Part shown: positions 22,674 through 34,454 of the stretch, in pieces
How positions within the stretch are numbered: the stretch's first letter is position 1
Layout: each line of letters begins with the position of its first letter
From: a virus
Direction: 5' to 3' (one strand)
Length of the DNA stretch: 40,334 nucleotides
Virus record (IMG/VR): IMGVR_UViG_3300005524_000010
Span: 1-40,334 of that record
The notes under the pieces: model-generated
Told to the model about the DNA's origin: nothing
The model's database searches: none
What the model saw: only the letters and a program-made list of their open reading frames with translations
Made by a program: the position numbers and the translations under genes

Positions 22674-23417
22674 TCAGGTGCTGGTGGGCCGCATGGCCGC
22701 GGCCTCGGCTATGTCGGCAGCGATACGTGCCCGGGTATCCTCGTCGGCCTCCTCCCACGGCATGCCCGGGCAGTCGTGGGGCTCGTTGACCATGACCGTG
22801 GGAACGATGGCTTGAGGGTCGAGCAGGCGCATTTCCTCAGCCGTGGCCGGGTCGGCTTCCTGCCGGCGCTGGAACACCGGGCCATTGCACACAGGGCAGC
22901 GCCCGGCGAAAGTGCGAATCTCGTTGACACCGGAGTCAGCGACCAGCACGGCGCACTGCCAGTCCACGTAGCTGACCACCGGCCAGCCCGTACCCTCCAG
23001 GGCAGCGACCGGCACCGGGCGAGGAGTGAAACCAGCCTTGGTCAGTAAGTTCACGAGCTTGGCCTCGGTGCAGTCCCACAGGTGCTCGCCTCCGACCCGA
23101 TCGTGACTCCGGGCCCCGGCGTGAGTGGAGCACCACGTCTCCGAACCCTCCTCGATGCGGTCAAGGTCCGGGCCGACCACGCAGAGCTCGCCTCGAGGAG
23201 CCAGCACCCGGCGTATCTCGGCCAGAACATTTGGGAGCACATCCTCGGGCAGGTGCTCGAGGACGTGGCCGGCGTACACGGCCTCGGCGCTGGCATCCTC
23301 GAATGGCCACGGCGTCTCGGCCAGGTCAGTCACCACGTTCACGCCAGGGCCGGGGTGGCAATCGACGTTCACCCAGCCCTTGGCCGGGTAGTCGCCGCTG
23401 CCCAGGTTGAGCCTCAT
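22674..23417 (-). CDS. Class I SAM-dependent methyltransferase, 247 aa
   Basis: ATG at 23417 overlaps the GT-A stop (ATGA). The start MRLNLGSGDYPAKGWVNVD is the SAM-binding motif I with the following acidic strand end. AEAVYAGHVLEHLPEDVLPN and EIRRVLAPRGELCVVGPD complete a Methyltransf_11-like domain. The C-terminal 80 residues add FAGRCPVCNGPVF, half of a zinc ribbon, and an acidic helix. With two glycosyltransferases next door it probably modifies a sugar or surface molecule rather than DNA. It lies between the glycosyltransferase genes and the tRNA, in the middle of the head module. Confidence 0.82.
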   Translation of the reverse strand: MRLNLGSGDYPAKGWVNVDCHPGPGVNVVTDLAETPWPFEDASAEAVYAGHVLEHLPEDVLPNVLAEIRRVLAPRGELCVVGPDLDRIEEGSETWCSTHAGARSHDRVGGEHLWDCTEAKLVNLLTKAGFTPRPVPVAALEGTGWPVVSYVDWQCAVLVADSGVNEIRTFAGRCPVCNGPVFQRRQEADPATAEEMRLLDPQAIVPTVMVNEPHDCPGMPWEEADEDTRARIAADIAEAAAMRPTST

Positions 23418-23434
23418 CGGACGATCGACAGGTC
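23414..23434. repeat. 21-bp direct repeat, copy A (GT-A 3' end)
   Basis: This 21-bp sequence, which encodes DLSIVR-stop and the following ATG on the minus strand, is identical to 24097-24117, 683 bp away. The two copies exactly bracket the GT-A gene. Copy A spans the GT-A stop and methyltransferase start. Confidence 0.95.
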
Positions 23435-24100
23435 GTGGCCGCGGGCCTCCACGGCGTAGAGAGCCTCGGGCCAGTGCCGACAGATCACGTCAGTGCGCTG
23501 GCACACGCCAAACCCGGCCCTCCAGGCATCACGCCCGAAGCAGGGGTCGTCGGTCAAGCCTTCATCGAGGCTCCAGCGCCACCGCAGTGCCACGGCCGCT
23601 TCCCGGACCAAGAGGAGGCACCCTGCCGGCGCCCACTCCATCTGGCGCAGGGGCAGATCGCCCTCGACCCCCCAGCCGGGGGCGGACGCGTCGTAGATGG
23701 GGATGCGGCCGGCCACCACCGGTCTCTCGACCTCCAGCAGGCGTTCCAGGCAGTTGGCCGGCGGCCGTACGTCGGTGTCCAGCAGCAACAGGTGGGTGTA
23801 GGCCACATGCCGGTTGAGGTGCTCGTGGATGAGGTTGCGGCCGGTGCAGATGCTGGTCAGCCGGTTGTTCCGGTCGATCGAAGCCGCTCCCTCGTCGAGC
23901 GAGAACTCCCACACCGTGGCACCGATGGCCGACAGCCGCTCCCGCAGCCGGCGCAGGCGCCCGTCATGGCCGTGCCCGGTCTGGACAGCGCAGAAGAATG
24001 CCGCTCCCTGGCGTTGCCACTCCTCGGCATGAGCAAGCCAGCGCAGCTCGTGGTTGCCGTCGCACTTGTAAGCGGCCACCGTCGAGCCGACAAGGATCAT
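23414..24100 (-). CDS. GT-A fold glycosyltransferase, 228 aa
   Basis: ATG at 24100 lies inside the repeat that also covers the gene's own end. The protein begins MILVGSTVAAYKCDGN, has NRLTSICTGRNLIHEHLNRH, then the DxD metal/nucleotide-sugar motif in THLLLLDTDVRPP (Asp108-x-Asp110), VEWERPV-like VERPVVAGRIPIYD, and MEWAPAGCLLLVREA. This layout fits a small nucleotide-sugar transferase of the GT2/Anp1-like group. It likely decorates virion proteins, DNA or host surface. No Shine-Dalgarno is visible; an upstream nine-codon mini-ORF ends ATGA on this start, so coupling is likely. Confidence 0.78.
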   Translation of the reverse strand: MILVGSTVAAYKCDGNHELRWLAHAEEWQRQGAAFFCAVQTGHGHDGRLRRLRERLSAIGATVWEFSLDEGAASIDRNNRLTSICTGRNLIHEHLNRHVAYTHLLLLDTDVRPPANCLERLLEVERPVVAGRIPIYDASAPGWGVEGDLPLRQMEWAPAGCLLLVREAAVALRWRWSLDEGLTDDPCFGRDAWRAGFGVCQRTDVICRHWPEALYAVEARGHDLSIVR

Positions 24101-24117
24101 CGGACGATCGACAGGTC
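24097..24117. repeat. 21-bp direct repeat, copy B (GT-A 5' end)
   Basis: Identical to 23414-23434. Copy B keeps the coding end of a lost or transferred gene (a short frame ending DLSIVR-stop) just ahead of the GT-A start. This is what a recombination at a gene boundary would leave. Confidence 0.95.
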
Positions 24118-24127
24118 ATCCCGCATG
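24115..24127. repeat. 13-bp direct repeat, copy B (3' end of the 88-aa gene)
   Basis: The sequence GTCATCCCGCATG is identical at 24115-24127 and 24371-24383. Both copies encode the final HAG-stop of a gene on the minus strand: GT-B at one, the 88-aa protein at the other. The pair brackets the 88-aa gene. Confidence 0.9.
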
Positions 24128-24382
24128 ACAAGGGCCCCCGGAGACACGTTGACCCTCGACCATGTCTGCGCTGGTAGCAGTCAGTGCGTACTGGACCGTT
24201 CGGTTTGTCCCTCGCATCGTAAGAATGTCTGAGCCATCCTGCCGTCTATCAAGTGAGGCAAGGGAGGAATCAAGCTGCTCTAGCAATGTGCGGCTGAAAT
24301 AAGCCACAGGCGGAGCGTGGTCGATGGTGATGCTGATGACACCGTCATAGTGCTGTGTCACCACCACCTCGTCATCCCGCAT
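24116..24382 (-). CDS. 88-aa protein of unlike composition, distant crotonase-N-terminus look
   Basis: ATG at 24382 follows AAGGAG at 7 nt. The body reads DGVISITIDHAPPVAYFSRT, then LLEQLDSSLASLDRRQDGSD and ILTMRGTNRTV. Strand, Pro-Pro turn, Ser-x-x-LLxxL helix and strand recall the first 60 residues of enoyl-CoA hydratase/crotonase proteins, but it is a third of that length and lacks the oxyanion and active-site loops. It is visibly less GC-rich than neighbours and bracketed by 13-bp direct repeats, so it looks acquired. Function is unknown; the similarity may be chance. Confidence 0.65.
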   Translation of the reverse strand: MRDDEVVVTQHYDGVISITIDHAPPVAYFSRTLLEQLDSSLASLDRRQDGSDILTMRGTNRTVQYALTATSADMVEGQRVSGGPCHAG

Positions 24383-24383
24383 G
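24371..24383. repeat. 13-bp direct repeat, copy A (GT-B 3' end)
   Basis: Identical to 24115-24127 (256 bp apart). It covers the end of the GT-B gene and the ATG of the 88-aa gene. Confidence 0.9.
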
Positions 24384-25448
24384 TACCAACTCCTTAGTCG
24401 TCCGCGGCGCACCCTCCCACGCCTGCCACCAACGGCCACAGAGCCGCTCGTAGGTCTGCCCGGCCATCGCCTCCCGTCCTCGCCCTGCCAAGTCGGCTCG
24501 GGCCTCGGCGCTGCGAATCAGGCGTGAGAGCCACCGTCTCCATTGACCCGGGCTGTCGGCCAGCTCGCCGACACCCAAACCATGCAACCGGCGGTTGTCG
24601 GGGGTGGGGCTCATGACCACGGGCACGCCGAGGCTGGCCATCTCTGCCGCCTTCAACGCCGACTTGCAGGCGTTGAACGGGCTGTCGTGGAGAGGCACAA
24701 TCCCGATGCCGATCTCCGCCACGCACCCAGGGTACCGCTCGAACGGTACCCAGCCGGTGACGCTGGGCTCAGCCTCCAGCCGGAGGGCCCGGCGCACTCC
24801 CTTGCCAGTGCCGACCACATGCACGCCCCAGTCGGTGCCGTGCAGCGCCCGAGGCAGCGCTCCCTCAGTCACCTCCAGGTCGCCCGGGTGGGTGTCTACG
24901 CTGCCGGCCCAGCCCACAGCATCCCGCTTCTCGGCCGGCTCGACCGACAGGTAGCGCTCGGGAACCAGGTTGGGCAGCACCATCCCGTGCCCGTAGCCGT
25001 AGCGGTCCCGCAGGGCCAGCGTCGAACAGGTCACGGTATCGGCCAACCGGCAGGCCCGGTCGATCCACTCATAGCTGTGGGTCGAGCCCACCCGGGGCCG
25101 GTAACCAGGGGCGGCCACGTTCCGACGGGGGATGAGGTCAAAACGGTCGTCCACGTCCACCACCACCCGCACTCCTCGAAGCTGGAGATGGGGGATGATG
25201 TCGGTCCACCAGCGCCGGCCAGGGCGCTGGAGCACCACCACGTCGGCGTCCGGCCGGTAGACCGACCACACGTTGGCGTCGGCAGGGGGGGTCGTCCCGT
25301 GCCACTCCCGGTCCCAGACCACCGTCGGGCCCGTGCGGTCCACGACCACGTCGGCTCCCTCCCCAGCCAGCGCCCGAGCCGGCATGAGCAGGCGGTACTG
25401 GCTGGTGGCGTCGTCCTCCCAGCCAGCCGGCCAGACGAGGACTCTCAA
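24372..25448 (-). CDS. GT-B glycosyltransferase (GT4-like), 358 aa
   Basis: A TTG start at 25448 overlaps the protease stop (TTGA). The N-terminal Rossmann half has MRVLVWPAGWEDDATSQYRL, ADVVVLQRPG and VVVDVDDRFDLIP. The C-terminal half has AVGWAGSVDTHPGDL, IGIGIVPLHDSPFNACKSAL and KAAEMASLGVPVVMS, which is the donor-binding Glu region of GT4-type enzymes. It should transfer a sugar from a nucleotide-activated donor. The position between protease and capsid genes is unusual and points to virion or receptor glycosylation. Confidence 0.86.
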   Translation of the reverse strand: MRVLVWPAGWEDDATSQYRLLMPARALAGEGADVVVDRTGPTVVWDREWHGTTPPADANVWSVYRPDADVVVLQRPGRRWWTDIIPHLQLRGVRVVVDVDDRFDLIPRRNVAAPGYRPRVGSTHSYEWIDRACRLADTVTCSTLALRDRYGYGHGMVLPNLVPERYLSVEPAEKRDAVGWAGSVDTHPGDLEVTEGALPRALHGTDWGVHVVGTGKGVRRALRLEAEPSVTGWVPFERYPGCVAEIGIGIVPLHDSPFNACKSALKAAEMASLGVPVVMSPTPDNRRLHGLGVGELADSPGQWRRWLSRLIRSAEARADLAGRGREAMAGQTYERLCGRWWQAWEGAPRTTKELVHAG

Positions 25449-29377: not shown

Positions 29378-29638
29378 TCAGACGCCCGGCAGGGGCTGCT
29401 CGGCGGGAGGCGCCTGGGCCGGCGCTGGCTGGGCGCCGATGGCCTTGGCCCGCTCGGTCAGGTCTGCGACCTTGGCCAGTGCAGCATCGAGGGCGGACTG
29501 GCTGGTGCCAACCCGGTCAGCGGCAGCGGCCAGTTCCTGGTCGAGTGCGGCCAGGGCGGTGTTGAGATCGTCAATGGCACCCACAAGGGCCTCCTTGGCT
29601 CGGACCAGCTCGGCGAGCCGGTCGGTTAGCTCGCTCAT
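29378..29638 (-). CDS. Coiled-coil protein, 86 aa
   Basis: ATG at 29638 overlaps the large terminase stop (ATGA). Residues 1-68 are continuous heptads (LTDRLAELVRAKEALVGAID, then LNTALAALDQELAAAADRVG), and the tail is Pro/Ala-rich (AQPAPAQAPPAEQPLPGV). It sits between terminase and portal. No family was recognised. Confidence 0.72.
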   Translation of the reverse strand: MSELTDRLAELVRAKEALVGAIDDLNTALAALDQELAAAADRVGTSQSALDAALAKVADLTERAKAIGAQPAPAQAPPAEQPLPGV

Positions 29639-31104
29639 GCCGCTCGGCCGGCGTGTACCATGCGGCCCTGACGACGAACCGGTGAATAAAACGCCAGGAG
29701 CAGGGCATCGGCCTCGTCCGGGCTGCGGCCCAATCGCTTGCGGGTCTCGTCCTTGGGCTCGACCTTGACCCGGCCACTGGCGTCAAGGGCATAGCGGGGG
29801 CTCGCCAACTGCGTGAGGGTCGAGTCAGGCAGTTTGGACAGGTCCCAAGCACCGTCCTCGGTCAGGCGACGCCCGACCTCCCACCAGATCTGGTCCCGTA
29901 GCCGTGGGAAGCGGTAGGGCTGGCTGGAGGCGGAGCCGACGTTGACCGGCACCGTCCGCACCCCCTCCACTGTCTTGCCCACATCGGCGGCGATGTCCCA
30001 GCCGATCCCGATGGCGTCCACCTTGACCGTCGTGGCCCCGGTTTCGGCAATGGCATGGAGGACGAGCGCCACAACCTGGTCGCGATCGGGAGTGAACCGA
30101 CGCCACATGCGACCGGCCACCGGCCCACGGCGCTCGACGACGACGGTCTGATCGCCGCCAGCCCCCACGTCCACACCCAGCTCGACCGGCTCGTTCACCT
30201 CGTGGTGCTGCCCAGCACGGTGACAGCCCACCAGGGCCGACCAGCGCACCACCGAGTCCTCGGCCTCGGCTGGGAAGCGCCCCAGGACCTTGGATTCCCA
30301 CACCGGGCTGTCCTCGCCCACGTCCATGCGCTGTTCCTCGACCCACACGGGGCCCACCAACAACTCAGCCAAGCCTGGGGGCAACGGCTCGCCGGTGAAG
30401 TTGGGCGAGTCGAAGGCAGAGATGCCGAGCACCGACCACCCCGAGCCTTCCTGGCACACCGAGGCGAAGTGGCTGGAAGGATCATCGGGGTTGCCGATAG
30501 CCAGTACCCGGCTGTCGTCGTTGGTAGCCAAGGCGCCGGCTGCCACCCATAGGTCCTTCGGGATGCCGCATGCCTCGTCCAGGATGACCAGGACGTAGCG
30601 TCGGTGGATGCCCTGGAAGGCGGTCGGATCGTAATGAGCCGGCGTGCGACCGAAGCCGAGCAGGACCCCTTCTGACCACCACTCGGTCTGGTGACAGTCG
30701 CCCACCAGACCACCCTTCCGGTGGGCATCGCCGATCTCCTGCCACAGCGCCGCTCGGACCTGGCCAAAGGTGGGAGCGGTTGAAACGACGATGGCCTCGC
30801 CCACCGGCCTCGTATCCACCCACCACGTCGCCAGGCGGGAAGCGACCCTGGTCTTGCCCGCGCCGTTGCAGGACCGTACGGCAGTGCGCCGGTTGGCAGC
30901 CACGCTGGCGGCCACGGCTTGCTGCTTGGACCACAGATGCTCCCCCAGACGGTTGGTGACCCAGCCGTTCGGGTCGTCCCGGTAGCGCTCAGCAGCACGC
31001 CGCTCGGCCTCAGCCTTGCGCCGGCGTGCCTCCAGCACTTGGGCGATCAGGGTGGCCCGGTCCGAGGGCGAGAGTTCCGGGGCGATCTGGGTCGTTACGG
31101 GCAA
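29635..31104 (-). CDS. terL: Terminase large subunit, 489 aa
   Basis: The start is taken as TTG at 31104, six bases after GGAGG; longer upstream frames lie inside the small terminase gene. The ATPase domain has RSCNGAGKTRVASR (Walker A, Lys84) and RYVLVILDEACGIP (Walker B, Asp176-Glu177). The nuclease domain has ELGVDVGAGGDQTVVVERRG (Asp312), TVKVDAIGIGWDI (Asp363) and SPDEADALLLAF (Asp466). It packages phage DNA at the portal. It overlaps the small subunit by 95 nt. Confidence 0.93.
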   Translation of the reverse strand: MPVTTQIAPELSPSDRATLIAQVLEARRRKAEAERRAAERYRDDPNGWVTNRLGEHLWSKQQAVAASVAANRRTAVRSCNGAGKTRVASRLATWWVDTRPVGEAIVVSTAPTFGQVRAALWQEIGDAHRKGGLVGDCHQTEWWSEGVLLGFGRTPAHYDPTAFQGIHRRYVLVILDEACGIPKDLWVAAGALATNDDSRVLAIGNPDDPSSHFASVCQEGSGWSVLGISAFDSPNFTGEPLPPGLAELLVGPVWVEEQRMDVGEDSPVWESKVLGRFPAEAEDSVVRWSALVGCHRAGQHHEVNEPVELGVDVGAGGDQTVVVERRGPVAGRMWRRFTPDRDQVVALVLHAIAETGATTVKVDAIGIGWDIAADVGKTVEGVRTVPVNVGSASSQPYRFPRLRDQIWWEVGRRLTEDGAWDLSKLPDSTLTQLASPRYALDASGRVKVEPKDETRKRLGRSPDEADALLLAFYSPVRRQGRMVHAGRAA

Positions 31105-31606
31105 GTTCAACCTCCAACGCTCGCAGCTCGGCCTCCAGGGCATCGGTGGGAACCTGCTCGATGCGATGGACCACCGGCGGGTAACCACCACGCAACTTGG
31201 TGAGCTGGTCCCACAGTGATTGAAGCCGGGCCACGGCAGCCAGCTTCGGCCCAGCGTCCTCGCAGGGAATCCGGCTGCCGTCACTCATCTCCAGCTCGAA
31301 GTAGGCCTTGCCGAAGCTCACCACCGGGTGGCGGGCATTGATGACCTCCAGGCAGCGCACCATCATCTGACGCAGAGCGGCCTCGTGCTGGTTGCGATAC
31401 TCGATGACCGCCGGCTCGATCAAGGCCTCGTTGGCCTGCCTGACCCAAGTCGAGATGGTTGAGCGAGCCACCCCCATGACAGAAGCCACCTCGTACTGGT
31501 TCATTCCCGAGTTGACGAGCTCCAGGGCCCGGCGCCGGTTTTCCCACCACTCGGGGGTGCGTACAGCCGTCCCACGGTTGGGGCCATTGCGGACCGTGGT
31601 CGGCAT
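31010..31606 (-). CDS. Terminase small subunit-like HTH protein, 198 aa
   Basis: ATG at 31606 directly follows the TAG of the upstream zinc-finger gene. Residues 23-55 carry a helix-turn-helix (RALELVNSGMNQYEVASVMG, VARSTISTWVRQAN) for DNA binding. A middle helical oligomerisation region follows (AVIEYRNQHEAALRQMMVRC), then AVARLQSLWDQLTKLRGG, and a Pro/Gly-rich tail that overlaps terL. Order and size match a small terminase that recognises the packaging site. Confidence 0.82.
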   Translation of the reverse strand: MPTTVRNGPNRGTAVRTPEWWENRRRALELVNSGMNQYEVASVMGVARSTISTWVRQANEALIEPAVIEYRNQHEAALRQMMVRCLEVINARHPVVSFGKAYFELEMSDGSRIPCEDAGPKLAAVARLQSLWDQLTKLRGGYPPVVHRIEQVPTDALEAELRALEVELARNDPDRPGTLALGPGHPDRPSAGGTPAQG

Positions 31607-31909: not shown

Positions 31910-32136
31910 CAAGTGCAAGCACCCCCTAGCTTTGCCAGCACCGCCTCGTGGTCCGACGCCCCGTCGTGCGCCCACCCCGAACGGGTGGTGACGCCGCTCT
32001 CCCAGAGCTGTTCCCCGCAGACCACGCAGGACCCCACCGGGGGCAGTCCAGGTCGGAGCGGTGACCACGGCCGTCCCAGCACATTCTCCCCTGGGCGGAT
32101 CATCCGAGTCAGATCGTCCGGGCCAGGATCACTCAC
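31909..32136 (-). CDS. Hypothetical protein, 75 aa
   Basis: GTG at 32136 forms a GTGA overlap with the upstream gene. The product has GSCVVCGEQLWESGVTTRSG with one Cys pair and ends HEAVLAKLGGACT. A single metal site with a partner His or Cys is possible. No family was recognised. Confidence 0.6.
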   Translation of the reverse strand: MSDPGPDDLTRMIRPGENVLGRPWSPLRPGLPPVGSCVVCGEQLWESGVTTRSGWAHDGASDHEAVLAKLGGACT

Positions 32137-32621
32137 GCTCCGCTGTCCTCGGCCGTTGAGCCCCAGCGGCCCTCGGTAACCCGCTGGCGACGCCGGCGCT
32201 GAGCCGCTCGAGCGGTCCGCAGATCGGCCGACCGGGCCGGGTGCTCACGCAGGCGATCGTCGGCCGGCTCAATGGTCTGGGGGTGACTGTCGGCCAGGGC
32301 ACGCCAGGCCCGCTCCAGGGCACGCTGGGCGCCCACCCAGCAAGCCAGCGCCCTGGCCACCAGCTCGCCGGCCTCGATCACGTTGGCCCGCACCGCGACC
32401 GACGCCTGCCAGGCCGACTCGACGGGGCTCCCACCGGGCTGGCCGTGCCCCCCGCCAAAGTCCGACCATTGGGGACGACGGTGGGCGTCGGCGTAGAGCT
32501 CGGCGTAGGACTCGGCCAGGCCTCGTGCCACCAGGCGCTCGAGGTCGTGACAGTCGCCAGCCACCTGCTTTGGGGTGCGTGCCGGGTGGCGGCGCAGGCT
32601 GGGGTCGGGATGCTCGGTCAT
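32133..32621 (-). CDS. Hypothetical helical protein, 162 aa
   Basis: ATG at 32621 overlaps the stop of the repeat-threaded ORF (ATGA) and has no Shine-Dalgarno, so it likely depends on coupling. The protein is helical: QVAGDCHDLERLVARGLAES, YAELYADAHRR, RANVIEAGELVARALACWVG and a basic C-terminus (RTARAAQRRRRQRVTEGRW). Similar proteins occur near terminase in actinophages with no known role. Confidence 0.68.
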   Translation of the reverse strand: MTEHPDPSLRRHPARTPKQVAGDCHDLERLVARGLAESYAELYADAHRRPQWSDFGGGHGQPGGSPVESAWQASVAVRANVIEAGELVARALACWVGAQRALERAWRALADSHPQTIEPADDRLREHPARSADLRTARAAQRRRRQRVTEGRWGSTAEDSGA

Positions 32622-32908
32622 GGGCCAGTGACGGTCGCTAGCGAGTCTTCCCGACCGTTCCCCGACCGTTGGGGAACACTCAACACTCGGAGGTGCTCCT
32701 GACCGTTCCCCAGCGGTTGGGGAACACTCAACGCCTGGGTCGGTGTTTCCCCAGCATCCAGGGGGTGTCGACCGTTCCCCGAAACCGCCCCCCGTACGTA
32801 GTACGGGGGGCGCCGCTGGCGCGGTCGGGGAACAGTCGGCACAGACCCTCCTGGACCGTTCCCCGGGGAACGGTGGGGAACGGTCGGGGAACGGTGGGGA
32901 ACGGTCAT
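32618..32908 (-). CDS. Low-complexity 96-aa ORF threaded through the GGGGAAC repeat array
   Basis: ATG at 32908 lies one base after the helicase stop, with GAGGA eight bases upstream, and the stop makes an ATGA overlap with the next gene, as for true genes in this operon. The product is Pro/Arg/Gly/Ser/Val-rich (TVPHRSPTVPHRSPGNG at the start, QALSVPQPLGNGQEHL later) and looks disordered. The 10-bp DNA repeats are read in different phases, so selection is likely on DNA. It may be a real protein tolerating binding sites, or a translated spacer. Confidence 0.5.
   Translation of the reverse strand: MTVPHRSPTVPHRSPGNGPGGSVPTVPRPRQRRPPYYVRGAVSGNGRHPLDAGETPTQALSVPQPLGNGQEHLRVLSVPQRSGNGREDSLATVTGP
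32653..32905. repeat. Iteron-like array of GGGGAACGGT motifs with palindromes; candidate replication origin or operator array
   Basis: Eleven exact GGGGAAC cores occur in 250 bp, seven in plus and four in minus orientation, plus a degenerate GTTTCCCC at 32745. Four 10-mers GGGGAACGGT run nearly in tandem at 32865-32905. A perfect 20-bp palindrome ACCGTTCCCCGGGGAACGGT is at 32855-32874. Two copies of GTTGGGGAACACTCAAC lie at 32668-32684 and 32716-32732, each preceded by GACCGTTCCCC so that hairpins can form. A 12-bp inverted repeat CGCCCCCCGTAC around GTA lies at 32786-32812. It adjoins the replicative helicase gene. Confidence 0.85.
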
Positions 32909-32909
32909 C

Positions 32910-34454
32910 TCAGAAGTCCTCATCAGGCTCGCTCCAGTGCTGCGCAACTGGCGTTTCATTCTCTCGGAAGGCCCGCACCGAACGATGCAGGAGCGATCCT
33001 CGACTGCCACCCGCCGGCTCCACGAACCCCTCCGCAACAAGGGCTTGCAGCGCGTCCAGGATGACATCCCGCTTGCCGTGGACGACGGCCAGCACCCCTC
33101 GCTTGCTGAGCGGCTCGGGCGCCGTCTCAAGCGCTCTCGACACCCGCTCCATGTAGCCGGTCGGACGCCATAGGCCGTCCCTGGTGGCACCCTCGGGGAC
33201 CGCCAGGGTGGCCGTGACCGTCGACCCGTCCTCGTCGGACGACAGCCGTAGCTCGGCCACGGTCCGCTGCCCTCCGGCCGCCTTGCGCACCCAGCCGGGA
33301 CGGTCCTTGGCCAGCACCACCCGAGCCAGGCCATGAAGGCCACGACCAAACGGCTTGACCACCTCCAACTTGAACGTCGCTCCGTCAATACCGGCCAACT
33401 TTGCTGTACTTCCACGTGCATATCTCCCCTGCGCTTCCTTCTCTTTTACCAGATGATCCACCAGCAGAACTGCCGCTCCATTCCTCGCAATAGTCCGGGG
33501 CAAAGCCTCGTAAAAGGCTGTAACGTCGCTCGCCTTGTTCTCGTCCCAAGCGTTCTGTGCCAACGCCTCCGCCACCCCGTCAACAACAGCAAAGGCGAAG
33601 CTGCGAGCAGCCAGCAGCGAGCGCAACCTCAGCCGAGCCGTGGCGTCCAGAGGGTCCTCGGGACGCACGTAGCACACCCGCTCCAGGATCTGCGCCGGCC
33701 CCAGACCCAGAGCCAGCAGCCTTTCGACCAGCGTGGCAGCGCAGTCCTCGAAGTCGACGTAGAGACTGTCCCACCCGGCCCGGGCGGCTTCCACGACGCC
33801 CAACGCCCCGAACCACGACTTGCCGGCTTCGGGCTCACCGTTGGCGGCATGCACTCGAGCCGGGTAGGTGAGGGCCTGCCCGTCGTCACGGCGAAGCCAC
33901 GCCGGCTTGGCCTCCGGCTCCTCGCCGGCCAGCACGGCAGCGAGGTTCACCGGGTCCCAGGAGGACTGGGCCGCTGCCTGTTGAGCATCCGCGGTGGCCG
34001 ACAGCTCGGCCGCCAGGCCCGCTATCGACACGCCGGAGTACGTCGCCTCCACCAGCTCGGCCGTTATGCCGAGCACCCTGCGCCGCTGGGCGTAGGCCAG
34101 GATCATGTCGGCCCACTTGGCGCTGGCCGCTTCGGACAGAACTGGGACCTGCGACTGGAGATGGATCAGGTGGGCCGTGCCTCCCACGGCGTCGAGCAGT
34201 CCCCGTTGGCGCAGGATGGCTGCCACCGTGCCGGCATCGTGCGGCGAGCCCTCGTTGACCTGCGCCCGCACCACATCGGCGATATGCGCATGGGCAGGGA
34301 CGTAGAAGTGGCCCGGCTCCAACCCGGCCACCACCCTGGCGCTGGCCGGCTGGAGCAGAGCGGCCCCGAGCAGGTTCTCCTCGGTCTCCTGGTCGTGCGG
34401 AGGGACGCGACCGAACCGCTGGCGTCCCCCTTGAGGATCGCTACTCAGGGACAC
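32910..34454 (-). CDS. Replicative helicase: DnaB N-terminal domain plus RecA-like ATPase, 514 aa
   Basis: GTG at 34454 (VSLSSDPQGG) overlaps the end of upstream reading frames. Residues 16-120 match the DnaB N-terminal domain: RVPPHDQETEENLLGAALLQ, PGHFYVPAHAHIADVVRAQ and GGTAHLIHLQSQVP. The ATPase core has VHAANGEPEAGKSWFGALG (Walker A, Lys212), YVDFED, FAFAVVDGVAEALAQN, AVLLVDHLVKEKEAQ and ARGSTAKLAG. The Walker A and core resemble RepA/AAA_25-type hexameric helicases. The C-terminus has a winged-helix-like region (EPLSKRGVLAVVHGKRDVIL). It should unwind phage DNA at the fork. Confidence 0.86.
   Translation of the reverse strand: MSLSSDPQGGRQRFGRVPPHDQETEENLLGAALLQPASARVVAGLEPGHFYVPAHAHIADVVRAQVNEGSPHDAGTVAAILRQRGLLDAVGGTAHLIHLQSQVPVLSEAASAKWADMILAYAQRRRVLGITAELVEATYSGVSIAGLAAELSATADAQQAAAQSSWDPVNLAAVLAGEEPEAKPAWLRRDDGQALTYPARVHAANGEPEAGKSWFGALGVVEAARAGWDSLYVDFEDCAATLVERLLALGLGPAQILERVCYVRPEDPLDATARLRLRSLLAARSFAFAVVDGVAEALAQNAWDENKASDVTAFYEALPRTIARNGAAVLLVDHLVKEKEAQGRYARGSTAKLAGIDGATFKLEVVKPFGRGLHGLARVVLAKDRPGWVRKAAGGQRTVAELRLSSDEDGSTVTATLAVPEGATRDGLWRPTGYMERVSRALETAPEPLSKRGVLAVVHGKRDVILDALQALVAEGFVEPAGGSRGSLLHRSVRAFRENETPVAQHWSEPDEDF

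Follow-up and report, generated by a model that had tools for sequence, protein, structure and literature searches.

A dense iteron array behind a DnaB-like helicase gene as a candidate phage replication origin, probably read by the helicase itself

The window analysed here is a single IMG/VR virus contig of 40,334 bp. Directly behind the gene for a DnaB-like helicase it carries a dense array of short repeats which, judged from comparison of sequences, is very probably the replication origin of the phage, the adjacent helicase acting as a fused initiator that would recognise its own origin. An iteron origin beside the helicase was also the reading preferred from the sequence alone; it is supported by the confinement of a 10-mer to the array and by arrays in 59 of 71 relatives; origin activity itself is a matter of inference.

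Organisation of the repeat array

The array occupies a genuine intergenic gap, bounded on one side by the helicase gene (its 3' end) and on the other by an ORF at 32,133-32,621. The following features were identified in and beside it.

32653..32906, no strand: iteron array, candidate origin, with 11 GGGGAAC cores and the consensus ACCGTTCCCC in the orientation of the helicase gene (sequence counts)
32865..32905, plus strand: four near-tandem iterons GGGGAACGGT at 32865, 32875, 32886 and 32896, directly 3' of the helicase stop (sequence)
32855..32874, no strand: perfect 20-bp palindrome ACCGTTCCCCGGGGAACGGT, an inverted iteron pair (sequence)
32786..32812, no strand: GC hairpin of the array, with perfect arms of 12 bp and a 3-nt loop (sequence)
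32765..32842, no strand: outer inverted repeat around the hairpin, 25-nt arms at 32765-32789 and 32818-32842, 80% complementary
32649..32732, no strand: distal block of two 36-bp units, 32649-32684 and 32697-32732 (sequence)
32133..32621, minus strand: next gene past the array, 162 aa, family not recognised, beginning a run toward the terminase large subunit (ORF and family searches)

All 11 exact GGGGAAC cores described in the sequence-only reading, in both orientations, were recovered within 32,657-32,902, and six more are scattered over the rest of the 40 kb. The expected number is about 0.05 per 250 bp, and the Poisson probability of at least 11 is about 2e-22. A recurrence of the 10-mer GGGGAACGGT at similar density elsewhere had been named early as a finding that would count against an origin. 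Its eight exact copies all lie within 32,654-32,905, with none in the remainder of the 40,334-bp contig, and a reversed control of GGGGAACGGT had no occurrence in the whole contig. The first repeat lies 5 nt from the helicase stop, so that short, specific repeats are clustered beside a candidate initiator gene.

The architecture reported earlier was also found. The four near-tandem units are spaced at 10, 11 and 10 bp, the 20-bp palindrome is perfect, and the 17-bp motif GTTGGGGAACACTCAAC is present in two copies, at 32,668-32,684 and 32,716-32,732. Each 36-bp unit of the distal block combines an inverted iteron pair with the 17-bp GTTGGGGAACACTCAAC. The GC hairpin is a further feature that had not been singled out; it lies close to the array's midpoint, between inverted iterons at 32774-32780 and 32827-32833, and each arm of the outer inverted repeat holds one iteron. 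The hairpin was also considered as an intrinsic terminator. No T-tract terminator was called there, and this reading was rejected, also because 14 related loci have their repeats within the helicase reading frame and because similar coding sequence continues past the array at L034 and L039. No RNA family in Rfam matched in the array, and a DNA-level search among phages returned a sole match of 87 bp, lying under a methyltransferase gene.

The placement of the array beside the helicase gene was upheld as to adjacency, but the array is at the 3' end of the gene and not at its promoter, the gene being on the minus strand with its stop codon at 32,910-32,912. For the 162-aa neighbour, tblastn against the phage collection returned no relatives, and neither Pfam nor PHROG gave a match. 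Beyond this ORF lie the terminase large subunit gene (29635-31284) and the portal gene, and on the other side of the helicase are DNA methylase and SNF2-type helicase genes. Elsewhere in the window, the head protease gene is separated from that of the major head protein by one methyltransferase-like and one glycosyltransferase-like gene (22674-25448), and a Gp3-like protein (recombination directionality factor-like, PF18897) is encoded at the contig end (39056-40174).

An AT-rich unwinding element was not found adjacent to the array, which has a GC content of 64-74%; the nearest dip in GC, to 53%, is at 33350-33499, about 500 bp away and inside the helicase gene. For this reason the array is said to work like a classical iteron-plasmid origin, and not to be one. 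Cumulative GC skew, proposed earlier as a check, lent no support, the extremes in the contig not being at the array. In Microcystis phage MinS1, a relative described below, the skew was monotonic and uninformative as an origin marker.

The helicase carries a predicted C-terminal winged helix

32910..34454, minus strand: DnaB-like helicase and candidate initiator, with DnaB_N, a RecA-like ATPase (AAA_25) and a C-terminal winged helix (Pfam, predicted structure)
32961..33167, minus strand: C-terminal winged-helix domain, residues 418-486 in A1 numbering (predicted structure)

The helicase ORF is open to 34583, with a likely GTG start near 34454. Its product has the two parts of a DnaB-like replicative helicase, a DnaB N-terminal domain and a RecA-fold ATPase with the Walker A sequence GEPEAGKS. 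Pfam assigned the DnaB N-terminal domain and AAA_25, and the best Foldseek matches of the predicted structure, which is DnaB-like overall (mean pLDDT 87.7), were DnaB proteins.

The predicted structure also contains an addition absent from ordinary DnaB, a confidently predicted winged helix at residues 420-480, and residues 443 and 454 sit in its two HTH helices. When this domain was predicted alone it matched winged-helix domains, many of them DNA-binding. Many families tied at VIA Z 8-9.6, and the Foldseek E values were no better than 0.005; the predicted fold indicates a type and not one particular family. The window helicase shares with SaPI Rep and Cch2 the presence of repeats immediately behind its gene and of a C-terminal domain of DNA-binding type. 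Neither DUF927 nor a helicase core of the Primase_Cterm/D5 type was detected in the window helicase by Pfam or Foldseek. Across relatives the N-terminal part is interchangeable, being DnaB_N, Prim-Pol or neither, which fits a core of ATPase and winged helix with varying primase arrangements.

Related helicases have arrays in the same place with different repeats

Profile scans yielded 185 helicase loci, 71 of them non-redundant (<85% identity, window included). A locus was scored as having an array when some 7-mer occurred five times or more within the 700 nt that follow the region of the ATPase and winged helix. By this definition a dense array was present at 59 of the 71 loci, compared with 41 of 1366 control windows (3%). 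At 58 of the 71, where 4 would be expected, this 700-nt stretch ranked first among the windows of the locus. The repeats begin 3' of the helicase stop in 45 arrays, with a median of 9 nt separating the stop codon from the first repeat (at most 40 nt in 43), and lie inside the end of the helicase reading frame in the other 14. Absence of the array from relatives with the same helicase had been the second finding named in advance as unfavourable; the array proved to be in the same place, but the repeat sequences differ.

The first relative found (L009, helicase 37% identical) has an array of CTCGCCCC directly 3' of the gene, a second (L018, 31%) has an array of CGACTGTCGCG, and MinS1 (36%) has one of ACCTCGTCCC. 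The window consensus, ACC-GTTC-CCC, corresponds in relatives to ACC-TCGT-CCC, ACC-GTGT-CCC and ACC-CTTT-CCC, so that the motifs diverge inside a shared frame of about ACC-NNNN-CCC. Tandem triplets at 10-12 bp occur in 31 of the 59 arrays. Most of the relatives' arrays hold a hairpin, commonly an iteron paired with its inverse and capped by a G/C run, and most, not all, of these score better than shuffled sequence.

Arrays are also present at the 3' end of the gene in phages Dagobah and P8625 (Verrucomicrobia phage), and phage Leaf has a weak one. No array was detected at L048, L167 or L177, or in Dulem virus 38. In KimJongPhill a cluster of eight CAGAACG copies (L212:1610-1858) precedes the primase/helicase gene by about 1 kb and does not follow it. 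One locus has a second cluster, CGCGACC in eight copies (L049:7946-8106), about 3 kb past its helicase-linked CGTTCCC cluster. Two observations concern the filing of records. The MinS1 loci (L022/L053, MZ923504.1), filed as Microcystis phage, have helicase relatives in Nocardioides genomes (L045, L046), and the MinS1 genome paper lists Nocardioides proteins at 64-74% identity; on these sequence likenesses the assigned host Microcystis looks doubtful. A further ATPase and array locus (L050, PUMG01000022.1) belongs to a contig that is assigned to an archaeal MAG (Halovenus) and is possibly mis-binned.

Repeats, whether clustered or dispersed, are bound by many phage repressors, and origin iterons often regulate too. 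An operator cluster, through which a repressor or the helicase would control transcription of the genes past the array, would suit the position of the array, in a gap with a gene downstream of it. It is nevertheless improbable, as the array stands behind the helicase gene and not before it, and the repeats are inside the helicase reading frame in 14 of the 59 loci. At L034 and L039 similar coding sequence continues beyond the array, placing it within the gene. A simple scan also found no sigma-70-like promoter, which is weak evidence in actinobacterial DNA.

Helicase residues covary with the repeat motif

The consensus of each locus was aligned to the ACC-NNNN-CCC frame and compared with 269 helicase columns, using only pairs with less than 45% ATPase identity. 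Residues 443 and 454 ranked first and second of the 269 columns (r = 0.41 and 0.38), the next column reaching 0.23. Glu443 was accompanied by the motif C5G6 in 17 of 17 cases, compared with 2 of 37 for other residues (p = 3.6e-12); after collapse into 20 ATPase clusters the counts were 4/4 and 2/29 (p = 3.7e-4). Arg443 went with G4 in 11 of 12 cases (7 of 42 for other residues), and Arg454 with G6 in 18 of 20 (11 of 34).

The partial Mantel correlation of motif with HTH given ATPase was 0.325, a value reached by none of 2000 permutations, and that of motif with ATPase given HTH was 0.073 (143 of 2000 permutations). Mutual information z-scores were not clean alone, some ATPase columns reaching up to 6.4, probably owing to shared ancestry. 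The conclusions on coevolution therefore rest on the far-pair column ranking, the partial Mantel tests and the clade-collapsed tests, which lessen the effect of shared ancestry and do not remove it.

In a later set of loci 13 of 15 Glu443 proteins had C5G6, a consistency check only, the scan having been seeded with Glu443 proteins. An out-of-sample test of the residue-motif code gave p = 0.07 on a biased set and is weak alone; the motifs of L224 and L248, apparently mis-registered by the automatic procedure, were counted as exceptions in it. L024 was omitted from the in-sample table because the motif assigned to it was a chance one and its true array is elsewhere. That array (L024:8312-8508) is displaced 2.8 kb downstream of the helicase and has the repeat ACCGTGCCCC, of the class GTGC, which is found elsewhere with Arg443; the L024 helicase has Arg443.

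Coevolution of residues 443 and 454 with motif positions 4-7 thus supports binding of the repeats by the helicase. As far as sequences can tell, the binder of the array is most likely the helicase itself, through its C-terminal winged helix, and the Gp3-like protein need not be invoked.

Two plasmids carry the ATPase and an array

The same kind of ATPase was found on two small plasmids. pKRAD02, a 12.9-kb circular plasmid of Kineococcus, has nine GGGAACC repeats inside the 3' end of the ATPase gene, and p-XQ-29-C of Streptomyces (7.9 kb) has eight CCTGCCC repeats beginning at the stop codon. Among the proteins scanned, Pfam identified no other replication gene on either plasmid; p-XQ-29-C also encodes a 368-aa protein without family assignment. 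These plasmids provide the strongest support, of an indirect kind, for the suggestion that ATPase and array together form a replicon. pKRAD02 (L209) also carries a small-terminase-type gene (Terminase_7, 901-1212) near the ATPase gene, which suggests a phage ancestry of this plasmid.

A packaging site (cos or pac), at which the small terminase subunit would bind the array on the border of the replication and packaging modules, is improbable, as is the operator cluster. Lambda cosB and SPP1 pac adjoin small-terminase-type genes, the window array has the helicase on one side and on the other the genes that run toward TerL, and from the translations the next gene looks like one of zinc-ribbon small-terminase type at eight loci (L009, L018, L027, L028, L031, L035, L045 and L138). 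The genes downstream of the array vary among relatives, however, and those read at other loci are SNF2-type helicase-like, HNH-type or adenylosuccinate-synthase-like. The array goes with the helicase and not with the terminase: relatives of TerL that were found without this helicase nearby show no comparable array upstream of TerL, p-XQ-29-C has an array and no recognisable terminase, and the motif follows the winged-helix residues of the helicase.

A centromere-like partition site, or an incompatibility or copy-control array, in place of an origin is the least probable function, for although tandem 10-11-bp repeats resemble ParR/TubR-type centromeres and TubR is among the many weak structural matches of the winged helix, the candidate binder is a helicase and not a ParB/ParR-like protein, and pKRAD02 carries a ParA-type ATPase and a ribbon-helix-helix gene separately, elsewhere on the plasmid.

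Discussion

For an origin read by its own helicase, the following mechanism may be proposed. The C-terminal winged helices of several subunits would bind the 10-bp iterons (ACCGTTCCCC in the window) behind their own gene, and in-phase copies on one face of the DNA would gather the DnaB-type ring and load it. Strand opening or priming might be aided by the array's GC hairpin, as a melted or a priming structure. Physical binding, ring loading, the role of the hairpin and origin firing are steps that we infer from the comparisons above.

In lambda the origin iterons lie inside or beside a replication gene, and recognition and unwinding are divided among a separate initiator O, a loader P and the host helicase. 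Here, recognition and helicase are apparently fused in one protein, and the model needs no separate initiator. Closer likenesses are found among mobile elements and plasmids. SaPI Rep is described as having an iteron origin directly downstream of the helicase gene, recognised by the C-terminal domain of the helicase (PMC7581432, citing Ubeda 2007). The window array is by analogy also directly downstream of a helicase with a candidate C-terminal reader, but the helicase families differ, the present one being a DnaB-like RecA-fold ATPase, often with a DnaB N-terminal or Prim-Pol domain. The C-terminal domain of SCCmec Cch2 likewise binds direct repeats downstream of its own gene, with inverted repeats (possible hairpins) nearby, and the site is itself preferred for priming (PMC7581432). 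Cch2 differs in having a helicase of the Primase_Cterm/D5 type and three iterons, whereas about 5-11 repeats and a DnaB-like ATPase are found here. The ORF904 protein of pRN1 is a winged-helix replication protein whose gene is followed immediately by an essential stem-loop, the structure of which is conserved but not the sequence (PMC4234260); pRN1 has an SF3 helicase and one large stem-loop, in contrast to the dense iteron array, short GC hairpin and DnaB-like ATPase described here. With its DnaB-like core, the window system would thus work like SaPI Rep, Cch2 and pRN1 but outside those helicase families.

The closest mycobacteriophage work concerns RepA proteins of extrachromosomal prophages and describes no repeated motifs next to repA, where the origin is presumed to lie (PMC7157519). 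The literature searched contained no report of the array, an absence that is weak evidence as few subscription journals were covered, and the array goes unmentioned in the passages searched of the genome papers for MinS1 and P8625.

To our knowledge, the origins of most actinobacteriophages are unknown. It seems fairly probable that the loci described here belong to a widespread class of replicons, in phages and plasmids, whose DnaB-type helicase (Prim-Pol being present or not) is fused to an origin-reading winged helix that replaces a separate initiator and loader. In such replicons the origin could be sought 3' of the gene, and a few recognition residues would predict the class of repeat. 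If this is true, origins could be located just behind the helicase gene in a large group of phages and in at least two plasmids, and the repeat class could be predicted from residues 443 and 454. The design of an origin behind its own helicase gene, as in SaPIs, SCCmec and the pRN plasmids, would then extend to a DnaB-like helicase, and the many natural pairs of motif and protein would offer a ready system for studying how the specificities of initiator and origin change together.
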